Shown one piece after another: positions 1,349-10,194 of a stretch of DNA of 10,379 nucleotides (positions are counted from its first letter, which is position 1; the number at the start of each line of letters is the position of its first letter). The stretch is from Calditrichota bacterium. GTDB taxonomy: Bacteria; Calditrichota; Calditrichia; RBG-13-44-9; J042. The position numbers and the translations under genes are program-made. Where the stretch lies: NCBI GenBank assembly GCA_013150955.1, contig JAADJD010000040.1, forward strand, positions 1 to 10,379, given 5' to 3'. Under the pieces are notes generated by a model. It was not told the DNA's origin and ran no database searches. It saw only the letters and a program-made list of their open reading frames with translations.

Positions 1349-3106
1349 TCAAAAAGCGGACGCCTTTTCTAAAATCGCGGCTTCTGAACGGCAGGGAGTT
1401 TCCCCGGAGGGTTGCTTGCCCTTCTGCTTCCAGCAGTCGACAGCATCGGCCACGCTAAAAAAGAAGCGATCTGCACCGATTCGATTGTACAGGCCGGAAG
1501 TTTTGAGCACATCCCGAACCGGTCCTTTCACATTGGCCAGAAGCAACGCCACATTGTTTTCTTCAAACTGTCTGACAATATCAACCAGCGTTTCCAGGGC
1601 GGTGGCATCCAGATAATTCACGCTGCTGGCATCCAGAATTACCGCCCGTGGGCGCTGGGACGCATACAACAATCGCTCCAGCCGCTCCCGAAGAAAGTTG
1701 GCATTGGCAAAATAAAACGAGGCATCGATGCGGATGATCACCAGTCCCGGTTCCTGTACCGCTTCCGGGAATCGTTCCACATTGCGATAATGGGAAGTCC
1801 CCGGTAGTCGCCCCAGTATGGCGTAGTGCGGTCGGGTACTGCGTACGATGAACATGAGCAGGGAAACCCCCATCCCAATCAAGATACCCGGTTCGATGCC
1901 CAGGAATAGAGTTGCCAGAAAGGTGATGATCAGTAAGGCGGCCTCGCTGCGTTTGATTCGCCAGAGGTGAATTGGTTCCCGCAAGTCAATTAATCCAAAC
2001 ACGGCGACCATGATAATTGCCGCCAGCACGGCGCGGGGCAAGTCATGAAAAAACGGGGTAAAGAACAACAGGATCAGACCGATGCAAATAGCAGTAACGA
2101 TAGATGCCAATCCCGTCCGGGCACCGGCCTGATCATTCACTGCCGTGCGAGAGAACCCTCCGGTGACCGGGTAGGCCTGAAACAGCGATCCCACCAGATT
2201 GGCCAATCCCAGCCCCACCAATTCCTGATTGGCATCCACGGTATAGCGATACCGGGCTGCAATGGCCTTGGCCACGGATATGGACTCCATGAATCCCACA
2301 AAAGAAATGGTCAGCGCGATTGGCAACAGCTGGATAACCGCCTCCCGATTGAATCCCGGAAGAGCGGGTGCTGGAAATCCCGCCGGAATGGCCCCAACAA
2401 TCTGCACACCGGATTCGTCCAGACGGAATCCCCACACGGCCAGAGTACCCAGCAAAACCACGATCAGCGGGGCGGGAAAGGTGGGTCGTTTTCGCTTGAA
2501 AATCAGCAAAATGGCCATGCTTCCCACCCCAATGAGAACGGTCGGCCAGTGGACATCGCCGATTTGCACCAGTGCCTGTCCAATGATGCGGTGAATGTGA
2601 TGGCTGCGCTCGATGGGTATCCCCAGAATGTGCTTCAGCTGGCTAAACCCGATGATTAACGCGGCTGCGGAGGTAAATCCACTGATCACCGGATGGGACA
2701 AGAAATTCACCAGAAAGCCCACCCGGAAAACGCCCATGAACAGTTGAATGGCCCCCACCATACCGGACAGTAAAATGGCCCGTTGAATGTACGCGGACGA
2801 GCCCGGTTCTGCCAGCGGTTCAATTCCCGAAGCGACCAGCAGGGACACCATGGCCACGGGGCCAACCGCCAGCTGCCGCGAGGAACCCATCAGCGCGTAA
2901 ACAATCAATGGGACCACTGAGGCGTACAGGCCCATGATGGGCGGCAGACCGGCCAGCATGGCATAAGCCATTCCCTGGGGAATCAACATCACCGCAACGG
3001 TGAGACCCGCCTGCAAATCTCCGGGTAAATCCTCCCGTCGATACCGCAATAACCAGCGTAAAAACGGCATATATTGAGTTAACGGAATTTTCATCCAGAC
3101 CCTCAC
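1349..3106 (-). CDS. SulP family anion transporter with C-terminal STAS domain
   Basis: This inner-membrane permease has the full SulP architecture: a multi-span transport domain (residues about 28-425) followed by a cytoplasmic STAS domain (about 440-560). Family landmarks visible are LIPQGMAYAMLAGLPP (41-56), GLYASVVP (59-66) and YPVTGGFSRTAVNDQAG (312-328). The STAS loop reads YLDATALETL (498-507), where SpoIIAA-like proteins carry the regulatory serine; a threonine is at the equivalent place. SulP members move sulfate, bicarbonate or other anions by sodium or proton coupling. The sequence resembles the sulfate-permease branch but does not settle the substrate, and no sulfur-assimilation or carbonic anhydrase gene is adjacent. 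The start is ambiguous: GTG at 3106 (585 aa) has GAGG 5 bases upstream, and ATG at 3094 (581 aa) has GAGGG 5 bases upstream. I favour the ATG. It appears to be transcribed alone. Confidence 0.92.
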   Translation of the reverse strand: MRVWMKIPLTQYMPFLRWLLRYRREDLPGDLQAGLTVAVMLIPQGMAYAMLAGLPPIMGLYASVVPLIVYALMGSSRQLAVGPVAMVSLLVASGIEPLAEPGSSAYIQRAILLSGMVGAIQLFMGVFRVGFLVNFLSHPVISGFTSAAALIIGFSQLKHILGIPIERSHHIHRIIGQALVQIGDVHWPTVLIGVGSMAILLIFKRKRPTFPAPLIVVLLGTLAVWGFRLDESGVQIVGAIPAGFPAPALPGFNREAVIQLLPIALTISFVGFMESISVAKAIAARYRYTVDANQELVGLGLANLVGSLFQAYPVTGGFSRTAVNDQAGARTGLASIVTAICIGLILLFFTPFFHDLPRAVLAAIIMVAVFGLIDLREPIHLWRIKRSEAALLIITFLATLFLGIEPGILIGMGVSLLMFIVRSTRPHYAILGRLPGTSHYRNVERFPEAVQEPGLVIIRIDASFYFANANFLRERLERLLYASQRPRAVILDASSVNYLDATALETLVDIVRQFEENNVALLLANVKGPVRDVLKTSGLYNRIGADRFFFSVADAVDCWKQKGKQPSGETPCRSEAAILEKASAF

Positions 3107-3348
3107 GGTTTCCTCTTACTCCAGCAAATCCATGAATCATTCAAGAATTTTGTGACTGCTCCCCGTACCCCGCTCGCCTTCTTCCAATTTTAGAACTGTT
3201 TTTACTGACCTCATCCACACCGGGATACGAGGTCCCCACAACGGCGCCAGGGTATAATAATTGAAATTCACGAATGGGTGCAGAGTTACAAACATTCTTC
3301 ATTTTCCGGGAATGGTTGTTGCAGACTTTGCACTCCATCAGGGATGAA
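3107..3348. other. Upstream region of the SulP gene
   Basis: Noncoding stretch between the SulP gene and the repeat array. It should hold the SulP promoter, since the gap to the operon further right is over 600 bases, but I find no convincing -35/-10 pair. A minus-strand TATTAT near 3255-3265 is the best -10-like string. A 76-codon frame crossing 3141-3371 begins inside the repeat element and has no recognisable protein features, so I treat it as chance. Confidence 0.4.
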
Positions 3349-3514
3349 CCCAGATTATGCATTATAACCACGAATTACACGAATTAACACCAATAAAAAT
3401 AATAGAATGCACTTGATTCTATCTGGATGAAAATGTTTTCTTGGATATATTCGCTATTTTGTTGATTTTATTCGAATTCATTCGCGTGATTCGCGGTTTA
3501 ACGCATTATTTGGG
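3349..3514 (+). repeat. Interspersed MITE-like element, complete copy
   Basis: This is the best-defined copy (166 bases). The left end is CCCAGATTATGCATTA and the right end is the imperfect complement, GCATTATTTGGG. The arms of about 42 bases continue as ACGAATTACACGAATTAACA on the left and matching ATTCGCGTGATTCGCGGTTT on the right. The centre holds TGGATGAAAATGTTTTC and ATTCGCTATTTTGTTGAT, shared almost unchanged with copies at 3515, 8774 and 10033. The terminal inverted repeats, size and lack of coding capacity fit a non-autonomous MITE-type element or a transcribed repetitive hairpin. Confidence 0.85.
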
Positions 3515-3636
3515 ATAAAAATAATAGAATGCACTTGACTCTATCTGGATGAAAATGTTTTCCTGGATATATTCGCTATTTTGTTGATTTTATTCGAATT
3601 GATTCGCGTGATTCGCGGTTTATTGCATAATTTGGG
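3515..3636 (+). repeat. Tandem partial copy of the element, left arm missing
   Basis: This 122-base unit repeats positions 3393-3514 nearly exactly (for example ATAAAAATAATAGAATGC at both starts) and follows it head to tail. It lacks the left inverted-repeat arm, so it is a tandem duplication of the inner and right part of the element, not a separate insertion. Confidence 0.85.
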
Positions 3637-3684
3637 ATGATTCGAATTCATTCGCGTGATTCGTGGTTTAAGGCTTTATTAGGG
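3637..3684 (+). repeat. Third tandem unit: right arm only
   Basis: Only the right arm is present: TTCGAATTCATTCGCGTGAT at 3641, then TTCGTGGTTT, ending in AGGG. With the two preceding units it forms a shrinking tandem array of 166, 122 and about 48 bases, each unit keeping the right end. Confidence 0.75.
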
Positions 3685-3735: not shown

Positions 3736-5016
3736 TTACCTTTCTGTGGAAGGTTTGTCTGTGGTCATCCCCTGCCGGTCCAGTTTCCGCTGTAGACGCT
3801 TCCGCCGATGCTCTAAGGCCTCCCGAAAGCGCCCCCTGCCATCGACCCGTTCCAGCTGTTCCAGCATTCGCAGATGGTTTAATCCGCGCTCCACAATCTG
3901 CAATGCCAGATGGAAGTCCTTTTCCTGATGTTCATAGAATTTGGCCAATTCTTCAATAATCCGGGGATGCATGATATTTTGATCCAGCAATTGCCACAGA
4001 AAGCGGGTGGCCTCCTGTCGCTTCCCCTGTCGCTTCAGGATCATGGCCAGCTGAAAAAAAGTTTGCAGATTGAATTGCGGGGAAAACGAGCCGGCCTGGT
4101 GGATCAGATGCTCCAGCAGTGGCAGTGCCAGTTCGTCCCAGCGCCGCTTGAAATAAAAATCCGCCAGCGCCGCCATTTCTTCAGGCGAGTTTAAATAGAG
4201 CAACGGCTCTTCTGCAACCGCCGCCAGATAAACACCCAGCAATACCATATTCACAATATCGTGGAAATTATGCTCCAGCACATCCTGCAGTAGCCAGACA
4301 TCGCGTCTACGGATGAAATCAAAGTAAATCTGGGGGATCAGCTCGCCCGGAATGTCTCCCACCCGATCCACCCGCAGCACATCCTTTTCCAGCTGCTGCA
4401 AATTGCAGGAAGGTAACAGATGACGCCAGATGCGGCGGGCGGCATGCAGTAAATCGATATGCAGTTTATTTTCCAGCACGTTGTTCATCTGGTTCAGAAC
4501 GAAGCGGTTGCTCAACAGCGGCACATCGAAGGTCTTTCCGTTAAATGAGATGGTCATCGGATAGGCATCGAACACCGTTTGCAGGTGATCCAGCATGGCC
4601 CACTCGTGACTGAAGTCCGGCAACACATACTGGCGCACCCGGATGGCATCGGTTTCGATGGTTCCAATCCCGATCAGGAAGGCAAATGTTCCGGTTCCCC
4701 CGGCAAGCCCGGTGGTCTCCAGATCGAAAAACACGGCCTGCCGCAGGGATAACGGTCGGGGCTCTGCCAGACCCACCAGCCGGCAAAATCGTTCGGTCTG
4801 AAAACCTTTTTGTTGCAGGTAGGAAAAGGCTGCATTTTCAAAAACGGGGTACAAATCTTCCTTCAGTAAAAAAAAGGATTGCTCCTTATGCAATACCCGG
4901 ATTTGAAGTTCGCGCTCCAGCTGCCTCACCCAGTCCGGCGACGCATCCGCCGGCGGTTGAGATGGCAATGCTGGTGCGGAACGATCCAGCCGTTCCAGCC
5001 GATCCCGCAACCCCAT
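3736..5016 (-). CDS. mrfB: MrfB/YprB-like DEDD exonuclease with C-terminal TPR repeats
   Basis: Homologue of Bacillus YprB (MrfB), the exonuclease partner of the MrfA helicase in UvrABC-independent repair of mitomycin lesions. The RNase H-like domain spans about residues 90-270. Exo I is FFDLETTGL with Asp98 and Glu100, exo II is SFNGKTFDVPLL with Asp164, and exo III is HNFHDIVNM with Asp253 and His249 four residues before it. All acidic metal ligands are therefore kept and a His occupies the DEDDh position. After residue 277 come helical hairpins (ADFYFKRRWDELALPLLEHL, LAMILKRQGKRQEATRFLWQ, LAKFYEHQEKDFHLALQIVE) that look like tetratricopeptide repeats, as in the Bacillus protein; total length (426) is also close to its size. 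The ATG at 5016 has AAGGGAAG about 4 bases upstream. It is the last gene of the operon, 54 bases after the glycosidase gene. I infer cytoplasmic DNA repair; nuclease specificity cannot be read from sequence. Confidence 0.88.
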   Translation of the reverse strand: MGLRDRLERLDRSAPALPSQPPADASPDWVRQLERELQIRVLHKEQSFFLLKEDLYPVFENAAFSYLQQKGFQTERFCRLVGLAEPRPLSLRQAVFFDLETTGLAGGTGTFAFLIGIGTIETDAIRVRQYVLPDFSHEWAMLDHLQTVFDAYPMTISFNGKTFDVPLLSNRFVLNQMNNVLENKLHIDLLHAARRIWRHLLPSCNLQQLEKDVLRVDRVGDIPGELIPQIYFDFIRRRDVWLLQDVLEHNFHDIVNMVLLGVYLAAVAEEPLLYLNSPEEMAALADFYFKRRWDELALPLLEHLIHQAGSFSPQFNLQTFFQLAMILKRQGKRQEATRFLWQLLDQNIMHPRIIEELAKFYEHQEKDFHLALQIVERGLNHLRMLEQLERVDGRGRFREALEHRRKRLQRKLDRQGMTTDKPSTER

Positions 5017-5070
5017 ACGCTTCCCTTTTTTGAATGGTTACTGCATTCCATTTCCCCGCCACCCGGCAGG

Positions 5071-5919
5071 TTAAGGGAATTTAACGCCAATTACAACCGG
5101 AAGGGGTAAAAATTTTTCAGAAGTGGGATTTTGCAGACGAACGGTGTCCATGCTTCCCATAAATCCCAGCGTTTCTCGTTCGCCGCGGAGATACAGGGAG
5201 GCCTCCGGGCCCCCTTCCAGATACTGGGCGGCAACCAGATCGATCGGCAGAGAAAGCAGAATCTGATTAAACGTGTACATGGGAAATGGGGTGGCACAAA
5301 AGATAAACAGCACCCGCCCCTGCCGATCCTCCCCCAGCGCAGTTACGCTCCAGGCCTCCTGATTTTTCGGCGACCAGCGATTGATGCCCGGACGCTTGAT
5401 CAACCGCAGGTTTTGAATGACGGTGTGATACTGCTGAATGACCGTATCCAGCGGGACCTCGTCCAGATCGAACAGGCGGAAAGGGGGAAGTCCCGTCCTT
5501 CGAGGGTTGAACGCGGCGGCGCTAAGATACTGCCGCACCGGTCGAGGATGGTCCACAAAATCGAAATGCTGGAGATACCCCACATGCGTGCGATGATCGG
5601 TTAAATACATGCCTGCATTGATGACAGCCGCCAGCTGGTAACGCCTGGCCCATTCCACCACGGTGAGTTTTTCGGAGTTCAGCTGCTTTATGGAGTAAAC
5701 GCCAAACTGCAGGTAATGGGGATCCAGCCGGGCCACCACGACCGTGCCTGTTCCCCATTCCGCCGGCACCGGGAAATAACCAACTTCCACCCCGCGAGCA
5801 ATTGGTTTCCACACAGAGTGGTCTGCGGTCGTGTCCGGATGAATGCCCCGGTTTGCCATTCCCGTAAACACCCCCAAAACCAGCAGACAAAAACATGTCC
5901 AGAAACGGTACATCGGCAT
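5071..5919 (-). CDS. Secreted NAGPA-type phosphodiester glycosidase family protein
   Basis: The frame extends upstream to 6039 inside the helicase gene, but I place the start at ATG 5919 (282 aa), 2 bases after the helicase stop, because the signal-like peptide MPMYRFWTCFCLLVLGVFTG begins there; ATG 5913 is an alternative. No clear Shine-Dalgarno is seen, so translation is probably coupled to the helicase. The mature part matches the domain of the N-acetylglucosamine-1-phosphodiester alpha-N-acetylglucosaminidase family: VINAGMYL (99-106), QNLRLI (169-174), EAWSVTALGEDRQGRVLFIF (188-207) and a C-terminal LEGGPEASLYL (234-244) where family members often have LDGG-x-S. Such proteins cleave sugar-phosphodiester bonds in polysaccharide or wall polymers outside the cytoplasm. 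I infer a periplasmic or surface location. Its place between two DNA-repair genes is not explained by this activity. Family call is good; substrate unknown. Confidence 0.82.
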   Translation of the reverse strand: MPMYRFWTCFCLLVLGVFTGMANRGIHPDTTADHSVWKPIARGVEVGYFPVPAEWGTGTVVVARLDPHYLQFGVYSIKQLNSEKLTVVEWARRYQLAAVINAGMYLTDHRTHVGYLQHFDFVDHPRPVRQYLSAAAFNPRRTGLPPFRLFDLDEVPLDTVIQQYHTVIQNLRLIKRPGINRWSPKNQEAWSVTALGEDRQGRVLFIFCATPFPMYTFNQILLSLPIDLVAAQYLEGGPEASLYLRGERETLGFMGSMDTVRLQNPTSEKFLPLPVVIGVKFP

Positions 5920-5921
5920 TT

Positions 5922-8198
5922 TCAGGATTTGAGCGCCTGGGTTAACCGTTCCAGTAACTGGTGACTGTGCTGTTTGGCCATTTCGCCGACTTCCAGCACC
6001 GGCCCCACACAGGAGGGACAACCGGCCTCGCAGGGGCAATTCTGGATCAGCTGAAAAGCGGCCTCCACGATGGGAAGCGGATCATTAAAAAACTTAAAAC
6101 TCAGTCCCACTCCCCCGGGGTAATTATCATACAGATAAATTGTGGGGATGTGAGAAAAAGGACTGCGCACCATGGGCAGGGCACGGATGTCGTTGGGATC
6201 GCACATCAAATAGACGGGTGACACGTTTCGGATCAGATTGGCGGCGGCCTGAAGCGCCCCGCTCAACTGGCTTTCGCTCAGGCCCATCTGGCTGCCAATA
6301 TCTTCCGGGAATTCCACCCAGGCGGCAGCAGTGGCCATCTCCATTTCCGGCAGATACACCCGGCCAGCGCCCACATTTTCGTGGGTGTGCAACTTAATCT
6401 TCTTATAACCGGTGGTCACGTTGCTTACCTGAATTTCGCCATAAACCAGATGGACGGGTCCCGCATCCTTCTCTTCATCTACCGTTAACACCTTCACATT
6501 GGTTTTGGTAATGGCATCGGTAAAATAATCCACCGCCACCTGATGCACGTAAGCCTTCTTCCGCTCCCAATCCAGTTGATCCACATGGTATTGCTGCCCC
6601 TCGTGCATGTAAATGGCCTCCTTATGTACCAGCATTGGCGCGCTGAACAAATCCACCTCCCCGATGACCCGCTCTCCCTCGGTGGTGTCCACAATCACCA
6701 CATTATCTGGAGAAGCGCTGCGCAGGCTGACTTCCTCTGCCGGGTAAATTTCACTCATCCAGAAATATTTGCCTCCCGTTTTGCGCAACACCCGCTTGTC
6801 CACCAGATAATCCAGAATTTCACGGGTTCCCACCGGACTGAAGACCTCGTTTTCCCGGAACGGAATTTCAAACGCGCCACATTTCAGGTGGCTCATTAGA
6901 ATTAACAGGTTGTCGGGATCGATAATACCCATTTCGGGGGATTTCTGGAAGAAATATTCCGGATGTTGAATAATGAACTGATCCAGTGGCGAACTGCTGG
7001 CAACCAGAATGGCCAGCGAGGTTTGATTTCGCCGCCCGGCCCGGCCTGCCTGTTGCCAGGTGCTGGAAATGGTTCCGGGATACCCGGCAAGAATGGCGGC
7101 ATCCAGCTGACCGATATCAATCCCCAGCTCCAGCGCATTGGTGCTGACCACTCCCAGAATGTGGCCGCTTTTCAGCCCCTGCTCGATCTGGCGACGCTCG
7201 TTGGGCAAATAGCCCCCGCGGTATCCCCGCACCCGGGACGGATCCAGGTGCAATCTGCGGGCATCTTCTTTTAAATAACGCGTTAAAATCTCTACGCGCA
7301 CCCGACTACGGGCAAACACAATGGTCTGCACCCCGGCATCCAGTAAAAAGCGCGCAATCCGGCGGGTCTCGTTCACCACAGAGCGACGAATACCCAGCTC
7401 CCGATTCACCACCGGGGGATTGTAAAAAACAAAATGTTTGCGACCGGACGGGGCGCCGTTTCGATCGATGACGGTGACGTCTTCTTCGATCAACCGGCTG
7501 GCCAGTTCTCCGGGATTGGCAATGGTGGCCGAACAACAGATAAATTGCGGCTGACTGCCGTAAAATCGGGCGATGCGTTTTAAACGGCGGATGAGATTGG
7601 CCAGGTGACTGCCAAACACGCCACGATAGTAATGAATTTCATCGATAACCACAAAACGCAGGTTCTCGAACAGTTTGAGCCAGATGGTATGGTGCGGCAA
7701 AATGCCCTGGTGCAGCATATCGGGATTGGTCATCACGATGTGCCCGGAGCGACGAATGGCTTTTCGTGCAGCCACCGGCGTATCGCCATCAAAGGTAAAT
7801 GTGCGAATATCGGCCTCCAGCAGGGTGATCAGCTCATGCAATTCGTTCAGTTGATCCTGGGACAACGCTTTGGTGGGAAACAGATAGAGGGCGCGCGCGT
7901 CGGGATCGTTGAGCACGGTGTTCAAGACCGGAAGATTATACCCCAGGGTCTTCCCGGAGGCGGTTGGCGTTACCAGCACCACATGGCGCCCGGAAGCAAT
8001 ATGCTGAAAGGCCTCTGCCTGATGAGAATACAACCGGTGAATGCCTTTTGCCTGCAGTGCGGCAATCAATCGGGGATGCACCGAATCCGGGAAATCGCTC
8101 CAGGAGGCTTCCCGGGGCGGGATTTCTTCCCAGTGGGTGATATGCGCTCCCAGCTGGGGATTGGTGCGCAAAAAATCGATGAATTGCTCCAGGTTCAT
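5922..8198 (-). CDS. mrfA: MrfA/YprA-like DEAD/DEAH-box helicase with C-terminal zinc motif
   Basis: A 758-residue superfamily 2 DNA helicase closely matching Bacillus YprA (MrfA, about 750 aa), an ATP-dependent helicase acting with MrfB in repair of mitomycin damage. Motifs in order: Walker A TPTASGKT (77-84), TNPDML (157-162), DEIH (186-189), SAT (223-225), VFARSRVRVEIL (294-305), STNALELGIDIG (352-363) and QQAGRAGRR (382-390). The C-terminal domain carries CPCEAGCPSC, with Cys721, 723, 727 and 730, the four-cysteine metal-binding signature of MrfA and related DUF1998 proteins. Every expected catalytic residue is present. The ATG at 8198 overlaps the stop of the upstream DUF523 gene in ATGA, which implies coupled translation; only a weak GGA precedes it. 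It is cytoplasmic. Confidence in the family is high; the mitomycin role is inferred from Bacillus. Confidence 0.94.
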   Translation of the reverse strand: MNLEQFIDFLRTNPQLGAHITHWEEIPPREASWSDFPDSVHPRLIAALQAKGIHRLYSHQAEAFQHIASGRHVVLVTPTASGKTLGYNLPVLNTVLNDPDARALYLFPTKALSQDQLNELHELITLLEADIRTFTFDGDTPVAARKAIRRSGHIVMTNPDMLHQGILPHHTIWLKLFENLRFVVIDEIHYYRGVFGSHLANLIRRLKRIARFYGSQPQFICCSATIANPGELASRLIEEDVTVIDRNGAPSGRKHFVFYNPPVVNRELGIRRSVVNETRRIARFLLDAGVQTIVFARSRVRVEILTRYLKEDARRLHLDPSRVRGYRGGYLPNERRQIEQGLKSGHILGVVSTNALELGIDIGQLDAAILAGYPGTISSTWQQAGRAGRRNQTSLAILVASSSPLDQFIIQHPEYFFQKSPEMGIIDPDNLLILMSHLKCGAFEIPFRENEVFSPVGTREILDYLVDKRVLRKTGGKYFWMSEIYPAEEVSLRSASPDNVVIVDTTEGERVIGEVDLFSAPMLVHKEAIYMHEGQQYHVDQLDWERKKAYVHQVAVDYFTDAITKTNVKVLTVDEEKDAGPVHLVYGEIQVSNVTTGYKKIKLHTHENVGAGRVYLPEMEMATAAAWVEFPEDIGSQMGLSESQLSGALQAAANLIRNVSPVYLMCDPNDIRALPMVRSPFSHIPTIYLYDNYPGGVGLSFKFFNDPLPIVEAAFQLIQNCPCEAGCPSCVGPVLEVGEMAKQHSHQLLERLTQALKS

Positions 8199-8689
8199 GA
8201 TGATTCCAGCTCGCGTAAATAGGCTTCAGCCCGTTCAATCTCCTTTTCATTGAACACCCGAATGCCAGCATTTTGCAGCATGGCGGTGGTGACCCCCGGC
8301 CCTTCCCGGGAGTTGCCCGAAAAGTGCCCATCGTAAATCCAGTATTTACCACAGGAAGGGCTTTTCTCTTTCAAAATGGCCAGACGGACACCATCGGCGA
8401 TTGCAATGCTGAGAGCCCGACGGGCACCTTCCAGAAAATAGCGGGTTACATCTTCGCCCTTCCAGGTCACCACCGCACTTTTCCCGGTGATGACATCATG
8501 GCCGTTGCCCTGGACAATCTCGGCCGGCGGACGCGGTACCGGTAATCCACCAGCAACCTCCGGGCAAAAAAGAATCAGCCGCCCTTCCCGATGCCACCTT
8601 GTCAAAATGGGATGCGTGACCGAAGCATCCTTCCCATCGTATCGAACTTTTTCGCCCAGTAAACAGGCACTGACGAGTACCTTTACCAT
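8195..8689 (-). CDS. DUF523 family protein (TudS-like, probable [4Fe-4S] desulfidase)
   Basis: A complete 164-residue DUF523 protein. The three conserved cysteines are present: Cys9 in SACLLGEKVRYDG, Cys42 in FCPEVAGGLPVPRPPAEI, and Cys113 in KSPSCGKYWIYDG. In the characterised thiouracil desulfidase TudS, also a DUF523 member, three cysteines hold a [4Fe-4S] cluster that removes sulfur from thiolated pyrimidines; the glutamate after the second cysteine (Glu44) is kept here. A similar reaction on a thiolated base or nucleoside is plausible but unproven, since most DUF523 proteins are untested. The start must be ATG 8689 because the first motif begins at residue 7, yet no Shine-Dalgarno precedes it (ATTACCTTT), so the gene may be leaderless or weakly translated. 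It is the first gene of the operon with the helicase, overlapping it by four bases. Confidence 0.87.
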   Translation of the reverse strand: MVKVLVSACLLGEKVRYDGKDASVTHPILTRWHREGRLILFCPEVAGGLPVPRPPAEIVQGNGHDVITGKSAVVTWKGEDVTRYFLEGARRALSIAIADGVRLAILKEKSPSCGKYWIYDGHFSGNSREGPGVTTAMLQNAGIRVFNEKEIERAEAYLRELESS

Positions 8690-8773
8690 AAAGGTAATTT
8701 AATGGCTTTTTTGGGGAATCGGAATGGCATTTTTGCAATTTTGATGGGATGATTGAACGGCGCCCATCTTTAA

Positions 8774-8932
8774 CCCAGATTTTGCATTCGCCCACGAATG
8801 ACACGAATTAACGCTAATAAAAAAATGCACTTGATTCTATCTGGATGAAAATGTTTTCCCGGATATATTCGCTATTTTGTTGATTTCTTTCGAATTCATT
8901 CGCGCGATTTGTGATTTCATGCATTATTTGGG
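8774..8932 (+). repeat. Interspersed MITE-like element, complete copy
   Basis: This copy (159 bases) has the same ends, CCCAGATTTTGCATT and GCATTATTTGGG, and the same core strings TGGATGAAAATGTTTTC and ATTCGCTATTTTGTTGAT. It lies between the hsp20 terminator and the DUF523-led operon, that is, in the operon's upstream region. The left arm is ACGAATGACACGAATTAACG. It carries small deletions relative to the 3349 copy. Confidence 0.85.
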
Positions 8933-9022: not shown

Positions 9023-9475
9023 TCAGGACACTTTGACTTCGATCTCTTTGGCCTTCGCCTCCTCCGCTTTCGGTAAGCGGATGGTTAGAATCCCATCCTT
9101 GTAATTGGCTTCAATTTTATCTTCCTGTACCATGGCCGGTAACTGGAAGGTCCGGTAAAATTTCCCGTAACGCCGTTCGACCCGATGGAAGTTGACGTCC
9201 TTTTCTTCTTTTTCCTGCTTCCGCTCACCTTCGATGGTCAACACCCCATCCTTGTAGGTAATGTGAATATCATCTTTCTTCATCCCGGGCAATTCCGCCG
9301 TCACAATGAACTCATTGTTGGTTTCCTTGATGTCCACCAGCGGATACCAGGTCGTCGGGGTCGGCAATTCCGTTTCCTCCAGCAGGCTGGGTCCAAAGAA
9401 CCGATTGATCAGCCGATTCATTTCTTCCTGAATGTTCATCAATTCCCGAGCTGGACTCCAACGAACCAGTGCCAT
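9023..9475 (-). CDS. Small heat shock protein, Hsp20/alpha-crystallin family
   Basis: An ATP-independent cytoplasmic holdase that binds unfolding proteins. The 150 residues show the usual three parts: an N-terminal arm (MALVRWSPARELMNIQEEMN), an alpha-crystallin domain from about 43 to 137, and a short tail. Domain hallmarks are DIKETNNEFIVTAELPGM (48-65), DGVLTIEGERK (76-86), RRYGKFYRTFQLP (101-113) and KDGILTIRLPK (126-136). The tail has I-E-V (145-147), the I-x-I/V motif that docks neighbouring dimers. AGGAGGTG upstream, with a spacer of about 6 bases, is a near-ideal ribosome binding site. It is a monocistronic unit with its own terminator. A close paralogue lies just to the right (10249-10379). 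No CIRCE (HrcA) inverted repeat is visible upstream. Confidence 0.96.
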   Translation of the reverse strand: MALVRWSPARELMNIQEEMNRLINRFFGPSLLEETELPTPTTWYPLVDIKETNNEFIVTAELPGMKKDDIHITYKDGVLTIEGERKQEKEEKDVNFHRVERRYGKFYRTFQLPAMVQEDKIEANYKDGILTIRLPKAEEAKAKEIEVKVS

Positions 9476-10032: not shown

Positions 10033-10194
10033 CCCAGATTATGCATTAGCCTACGAATGACACGAATGAACACCAATAAAAAAATAATATACTTTATTCT
10101 ATCTGGATGAAAATGTTTTCCCGGATATATTCGCTATTTTGTTGATTTTTTTCGAATTCATTCGCGTGATTCGCGGTTTAACGGTTTATTTGGG
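10033..10194 (+). repeat. Interspersed MITE-like element, complete copy
   Basis: A 162-base copy with ends CCCAGATTATGCATTA and TTTATTTGGG, arms ACGAATGACACGAATGAACA and ATTCGCGTGATTCGCGGTTT, and the conserved core strings TGGATGAAAATGTTTTC and ATTCGCTATTTTGTTGAT. It lies immediately beyond the terminator of the partial hsp20 gene, matching the position of the 8774 copy beyond the first hsp20 terminator. Confidence 0.85.

Follow-up and report, generated by a model that had tools for sequence, protein, structure and literature searches.

The DNA analysed here, called the window below, is a complete contig (C9; 10,379 nucleotides) of a Calditrichota assembly of 4.07 Mb that is 99.7% complete, and it carries a gene for a stand-alone TudS-type desulfidase directly upstream of mrfA, the helicase gene of the mrfAB DNA excision-repair module, in an arrangement that recurs in three families of one order of the phylum. 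From the sequences we can read the identities of the genes, their intact active sites, the conserved tudS-mrfA order over the three families and a genus-restricted insertion of a glycosidase gene, and from these we infer cotranscription, the substrate of this TudS and a benefit of expressing tudS and mrfA together. The explanation that we prefer, with a probability of roughly 55%, is that mrfAB excision repair is co-expressed with TudS-dependent salvage of tRNA nucleotides, and that the glycosidase gene is a passenger.

Organization of the locus

All four genes lie on the minus strand and run in the same direction, tudS -> mrfA -> NAGPA-type gene -> mrfB. The first, tudS (8195..8689), encodes a 164-aa stand-alone TudS-type desulfidase of the DUF523/PF04463 family, and its stop overlaps by 4 bp (ATGA) the start of mrfA (yprA; 5922..8198), which encodes a 758-aa SF2 3'-5' DNA helicase with an MZB Zn domain; this overlap had been described in an earlier sequence-only reading of the same DNA and is upheld here. 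The ATG of the NAGPA-fold protein gene (5071..5919; PF09992, 282 aa, with an N-terminal hydrophobic helix) occupies 5919-5917, 2 bp past the mrfA stop, and a gap of 54 bp separates this gene from mrfB (yprB; 3736..5016), whose 426-aa product is a 3'-5' exonuclease of the DEDDh type, with putative helical repeats at its C-terminus. A mechanically called frame of 322 aa from TTG 6039 was rejected as the glycosidase, since it would overlap mrfA by 118 bp, and hence we place the start at ATG 5919 (282 aa). Between tudS and an HSP20 small heat-shock protein gene (9023..9475, minus strand), which lies upstream of the operon and outside it, there is a terminator-like hairpin (8998-8981 on the minus strand, 7 G-C pairs, a 4-nt loop and T7; a consensus match only) that forms the upstream border of the operon. 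An identical four-gene order is found in the sister species (G026), and thus is not an accident of one contig; the four genes are read here as a putative single transcription unit. A scan of the window for RNA families returned no match.

A second HSP20 gene, also on the minus strand, is cut by the contig end, and a SulP transporter gene (1349..3106, minus strand) begins ~630 bp beyond mrfB. The HSP20 gene pair is seen upstream of tudS-mrfA in the window's genome (G000), in G026 and in G028, and in G034 it lies directly upstream of mrfA, with no tudS there.

The MrfA helicase and the MrfB exonuclease

MrfA contains the domains PF00270, PF00271, PF22982 (HRQ1-type winged helix) and PF09369 (MZB), and aligns over 735 residues with Bacillus subtilis YprA/MrfA (6znp; E=3e-275 in phmmer). 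The Walker A motif and the DExH box of an SF2 helicase core are both present (TPTASGKT 77-84 and DEIH 186-189), as are QAGRAGRR 383-390 and CPCEAGCPSC 721-730, the last aligning with CPCHDGCPSC of 6znp, the four-cysteine zinc site of the MZB domain. Its nearest relatives are encoded by Calditrichota/KSB1-type genomes, with 86% identity to isolate S139_29 and 69-74% to KSB1 4484_188, Caldithrix RBG_13_44_9 and Calditrichia bins. The partner gene mrfB stands on the same strand, one gene further on (3736-5016); its product matches PF13482 and the solved MrfB core 8un9 (E=1e-32), and on alignment with the latter D98, E100, D164, H249 and D253 make up the full DEDDh set, which in B. subtilis MrfB is formed by D107, E109, D172, H258 and D262 (PMC11194089). 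For the putative C-terminal repeats, the TPR matches at residues 320-359 are sub-threshold only. Thus the presence of mrfA and mrfB with intact catalytic motifs, asserted earlier from the letters of the DNA, is borne out by the alignments with 6znp and 8un9. A YprA-type anti-phage system (DISARM, Dpd or Druantia) was considered and rejected: the window holds no defence partner, the neighbour is mrfB, and the PADLOC matches fall in the generic helicase core.

The locus resembles the mrfAB (yprAB) genes of Bacillus subtilis in the succession of mrfA and mrfB, in the end-to-end match of MrfA to 6znp over 735 residues and in the agreement of the DEDDh core of MrfB with 8un9. It differs in that tudS leads the operon and the NAGPA-type gene parts mrfA from mrfB. 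In reports of mrfAB the sole regular partner described for mrfA is mrfB (PMC12458937), and our literature search found no paper tying TudS/DUF523 to a helicase.

The stand-alone desulfidase and its probable substrate

The product of tudS matches PF04463 with E=2e-44 and the TudS structure 6z92 with E=3e-38. Reference TudS has the cluster cysteines C10, C43 and C104, the catalytic residues Glu45, Ser101 and Ser103, and Arg17 as a phosphate contact (PMC10611767); in the window protein the three [4Fe-4S] cysteines are C9, C42 and C113, the catalytic E44, S110 and S112 are in place, and R16 is the equivalent of the phosphate-contacting Arg17. It therefore shares its length, the cluster cysteines and the equivalents of Glu45, Ser101, Ser103 and Arg17 with the known stand-alone enzymes (TudS_A, 6z92; TudS_P; P. 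putida TudS_KT), but unlike them is encoded at mrfA, and in one related genus Ser103 is replaced by Ala. None of the nine operon TudS proteins has lost a cluster cysteine or the residues equivalent to Glu45 and Ser101. We rejected a RudS identity for the protein, which at 164 aa contains PF04463 only and lacks DUF1722. RudS, a TudS-DUF1722 fusion, has a homologous desulfidase domain, but the RudS genes of the phylum (e.g. L127, G030:C126) sit away from mrfA, unlike the window's tudS. Genes for RudS are reported from light-responsive operons with photolyase genes (PMC11417400); this is the nearest known link between a desulfidase and DNA repair and, by analogy, a precedent for shared regulation.

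Characterised stand-alone TudS enzymes act preferentially on free 4-thio-UMP; they do not use a 4-thiouridine mini-tRNA, and deletion of TudS leaves tRNA s4U unchanged (PMC10611767). The s4U synthase ThiI is encoded in the window's genome (G000:C11), and across the phylum the co-occurrence of desulfidase genes (TudS/RudS) with ThiI is only a tendency, which we did not take as proof. By homology, the window TudS most likely acts on free thiouridine nucleotides, such as 4-thio-UMP from tRNA breakdown. At 3/15 inspected clostridial loci tudS overlaps or abuts a PP-loop + NFACT-R gene (L138:1971-2951, L154:509-1495, L128:1962-2966) that resembles tRNA-thiolation enzymes; its product is possibly a tRNA-thiolation or de-thiolation partner, and the linkage points to RNA-derived nucleotides as the substrate. 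In some clostridial cases tudS is fused in frame overlap to the PP-loop/NFACT-R protein.

Linkage of tudS and mrfA in Calditrichota

We searched 40 Calditrichota genomes for MZB, PF04463, PF09992, MrfB and ThiI, and read the mrfA regions. By MZB, mrfA is present in 35/40 genomes, to which G028 is added through a truncated gene; in the families outside the window's order, mrfA typically leads into mrfB and lacks a tudS. Full-length stand-alone tudS (PF04463) occurs in 9/40 genomes, all in the window's order and belonging to the families f1 (G000, G026), f2 (G028, G033, G031) and f3 (G035, G037, G038, G039), and in every one of the nine it is found at mrfA. It lies directly upstream of mrfA and in the same direction in eight of them, with gaps of -4, -4, -4, -4, -23, +4, +100 and +116 bp, the two wide gaps (~100 bp) being those of G028 and G038. 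In the ninth (G031) an opposite-strand amidohydrolase gene stands between the two, and cotranscription of tudS and mrfA is therefore impossible there. Family f2 has mrfB elsewhere in the genome (G028, G030, G031, G032, G034), so mrfA and mrfB need not share an operon; despite this relocation mrfA has kept its tudS in G028 and G033, and three genomes (G030, G032, G034) have mrfA without tudS. The flanking genes of tudS-mrfA otherwise vary from family to family. The phylum's remaining PF04463 genes have long frames (345-390 aa) and lie away from mrfA; the scan of one of them, G030:C126, showed a fusion of the RudS type that carries DUF1722, and in G011 PF04463 appears only as a contig-end fragment.

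In the MrfA tree the window's order forms one clade (100/99), and on this tree as drawn, with f2 unresolved, the presence of tudS needs four changes. In a TudS tree with a comparison set of 30 clostridial TudS, TudS_A and one RudS domain, one branch (77/83) separates the nine operon TudS from all the others. The simplest reading of these data, though not a proven one, is that the ancestor of the order acquired tudS once, that the gene was then inherited vertically and that it was later lost within f2.

As a background for the retention of gene pairs we compared 370 kb of the window's genome with 1.2 Mb of G039, a sample of few pairs that is biased to well-conserved genes. Same-strand pairs were kept in 14/41 cases, and tight same-strand pairs in 6/16 (30% identity cut) to 6/9 (45%); tudS-mrfA, retained in 8/9 genomes, reaches or exceeds the upper end of this background for tight pairs. 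This supports a real operon without showing a joint working of the two enzymes; conserved adjacency as a proof of functional coupling was set aside, being weakened by the tight-pair background.

In G039 the two halves of mrfB stand at 3.76 and 2.90 Mb (L088:7607-8659 and L119:3650-4840), each ending at an N run, and this reflects either a misjoin or an inversion that broke within the gene. The first half had the look of a chimeric mrfB, which was traced to a masked N run and is no new protein.

Co-expression or passive inheritance

Under the explanation that we prefer, MrfA would unwind DNA at a bulky adduct and the MrfB exonuclease would remove the damaged strand, as in an ordinary mrfAB module. 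The ancestor of one Calditrichota order would have gained a stand-alone tudS directly upstream of mrfA, and the two would have been expressed together since, with TudS desulfurating free 4-thio-UMP from tRNA breakdown at its [4Fe-4S] cluster. One promoter would in this way serve two damage-limiting jobs, the cleaning of the pool of thiolated nucleotides and the excision of DNA lesions, and TudS and MrfAB would need neither contact nor a common substrate. In the window's genus the NAGPA-type gene would have been inserted between mrfA and mrfB as a passenger. Points against this explanation are the intervening opposite-strand gene in G031, the wide spacing in G028 and G038, the genus g12 (see below), the loose tie of desulfidase genes to ThiI over the phylum and the degree to which gene order is expected to be conserved here anyway.

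The main rival is that tudS landed once upstream of mrfA and that the pair has merely been inherited, with no functional or regulatory benefit, which we regard as a real but distinctly weaker candidate. A single acquisition accounts for the distribution of tudS, tight pairs are commonly conserved between these families (in the small sample above), and tudS has been lost at mrfA in three genomes that retain mrfA. The pair was also not met in the genomes sampled outside the phylum: a profile of the operon TudS detected no tudS within the fetched flanks of 74 mrfA loci from other groups, 23 further genomes had no PF04463 at mrfA, and among the matches listed for 299 genomes of the clostridial phylum (176 with TudS and 82 with an MrfA-like match at E<=1e-100) no tudS-mrfA pair occurs together, this outside sampling having left out Bacteroidota, Proteobacteria and archaea. 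What speaks against mere inheritance is that all nine stand-alone tudS genes of the phylum remain at mrfA even though the genes around them have otherwise changed places, as has even mrfB in f2.

The conserved pair provides a testable hint as to the inducer of mrfAB outside Bacillus and as to a threat from thiolated nucleotides to DNA. If it reflects mere co-expression or passive linkage, which is likelier, the gain is a small one of annotation, namely that a DUF523 protein beside a helicase is to be annotated as a thionucleotide desulfidase, and that the glycosidase is not to be read as a repair gene.

A proposed substrate in DNA

A closer coupling, in which TudS desulfurates DNA bases or thio-dNTPs and MrfAB excises what TudS misses in one repair pathway, appears improbable to us. 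The conserved adjacency of tudS and mrfA would fit it, as would the frequent proximity of RudS genes to photolyase genes, which indicates that desulfidases and repair can share regulation (PMC11417400). However, the substrates of stand-alone TudS are nucleotides, and the 4-thiouridine mini-tRNA is not among them (PMC10611767), and no DNA-binding domain was detected in the 164-aa protein. The proposal of the sequence-only reading that desulfuration of bases is coupled to excision repair, one deduced there from the order of the genes, finds no support, given the preference of TudS for free 4-thio-UMP and a sequence in which nothing points to DNA.

The genus g12 (G037, G038, G039; genomes 81-92% complete) is an exception that is compatible with another substrate and counts in favour of such a pathway. 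It retains tudS at mrfA, ThiI was not found in its three genomes by TIGR00342 and PF02568 searches, and its TudS proteins have Ser103 -> Ala in all three and in G037 also Arg17 -> Trp. With ThiI not found and the active site altered, 4-thio-UMP could not be the substrate there unless it is scavenged, and the case may be explained either by another substrate or by a relaxation of selection; the substrate of TudS may have drifted in this genus. The same Ser103 -> Ala change is found in two clostridial TudS (G329, G078) whose genomes both have ThiI, which argues against taking it as a mark of a DNA substrate. It also fails in Clostridia as a mark of ThiI loss, and several Clostridia with a Ser103-bearing TudS have no full ThiI match. 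A variant in which TudS of this order has taken on the cleaning of DNA or deoxynucleotides (by desulfurating thiolated deoxynucleotides or bases, e.g. 4-thio-dUMP), with MrfAB removing those thiolated nucleotides that reach DNA and g12 as the specialised case, strikes us as slightly more far-fetched still.

The NAGPA-type protein

The protein encoded between mrfA and mrfB matches PF09992 with 36.3 bits (cut-off 25), and the best PDB matches of its AlphaFold2 model (pLDDT 82) in Foldseek are 6pku, 6pky and 3ohg (E ~1e-9 to 1e-10), which are NAGPA catalytic domains and a DUF2233 protein. The splitting of mrfA and mrfB by a NAGPA-type gene (5071-5919), pointed out earlier, is thereby corroborated by both family and fold. 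It shares the fold of the NAGPA/DUF2233 phosphodiester glycosidases (6pku, 3ohg), but its sequence identity to them is only ~11-16%, and the glycosidase role is a predicted one; NAGM and LEGG motifs are common to the protein and its relatives in the phylum. A hydrophobic N-terminal helix at residues 3-21 is compatible with a signal peptide, and the protein is probably secreted.

In the 40 genomes, PF09992 occurs at mrfA only in G000 and G026, which belong to one genus, and relatives of the protein (28-44% identical) are encoded in ten other genomes of the phylum at unrelated places, so that its place between mrfA and mrfB is an insertion at the level of the genus. Of the two neighbours of mrfA expected to recur in relatives, DUF523 does so (9/9 at mrfA in the phylum) and PF09992 does not, and the earlier inclusion of the glycosidase in a system with the repair genes is not supported. 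A working role of the protein in the repair operon is very improbable, its close spacing to mrfA and mrfB in the window and its position between them in G026 being outweighed by its restriction to one genus, the unrelated locations of its relatives and a helix that suggests export away from DNA.

A family of intergenic repeats

The window also contains a ~165-bp intergenic repeat with complementary ends (CGAATCACGCGAATGAATTCG ... AATTCGTGTCATTCGTGG), with copies at 8768-8932, 10033-10194, 3520-3642 and 3347-3514 on the minus strand and at 1121-1294 on the plus strand. It has no Rfam match. In the 370-kb sample there are several dozen copies in both orientations that are 70-90% identical, and the sister species G026 has a single 50-bp match to the tail of the repeat. 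A first-look search gave 736 candidates in the window's genome versus 12-51 in the phylum's other 39 genomes. The repeat has the look of a MITE- or REP-like family peculiar to this species, with several hundred copies that make up perhaps 3% of the genome.
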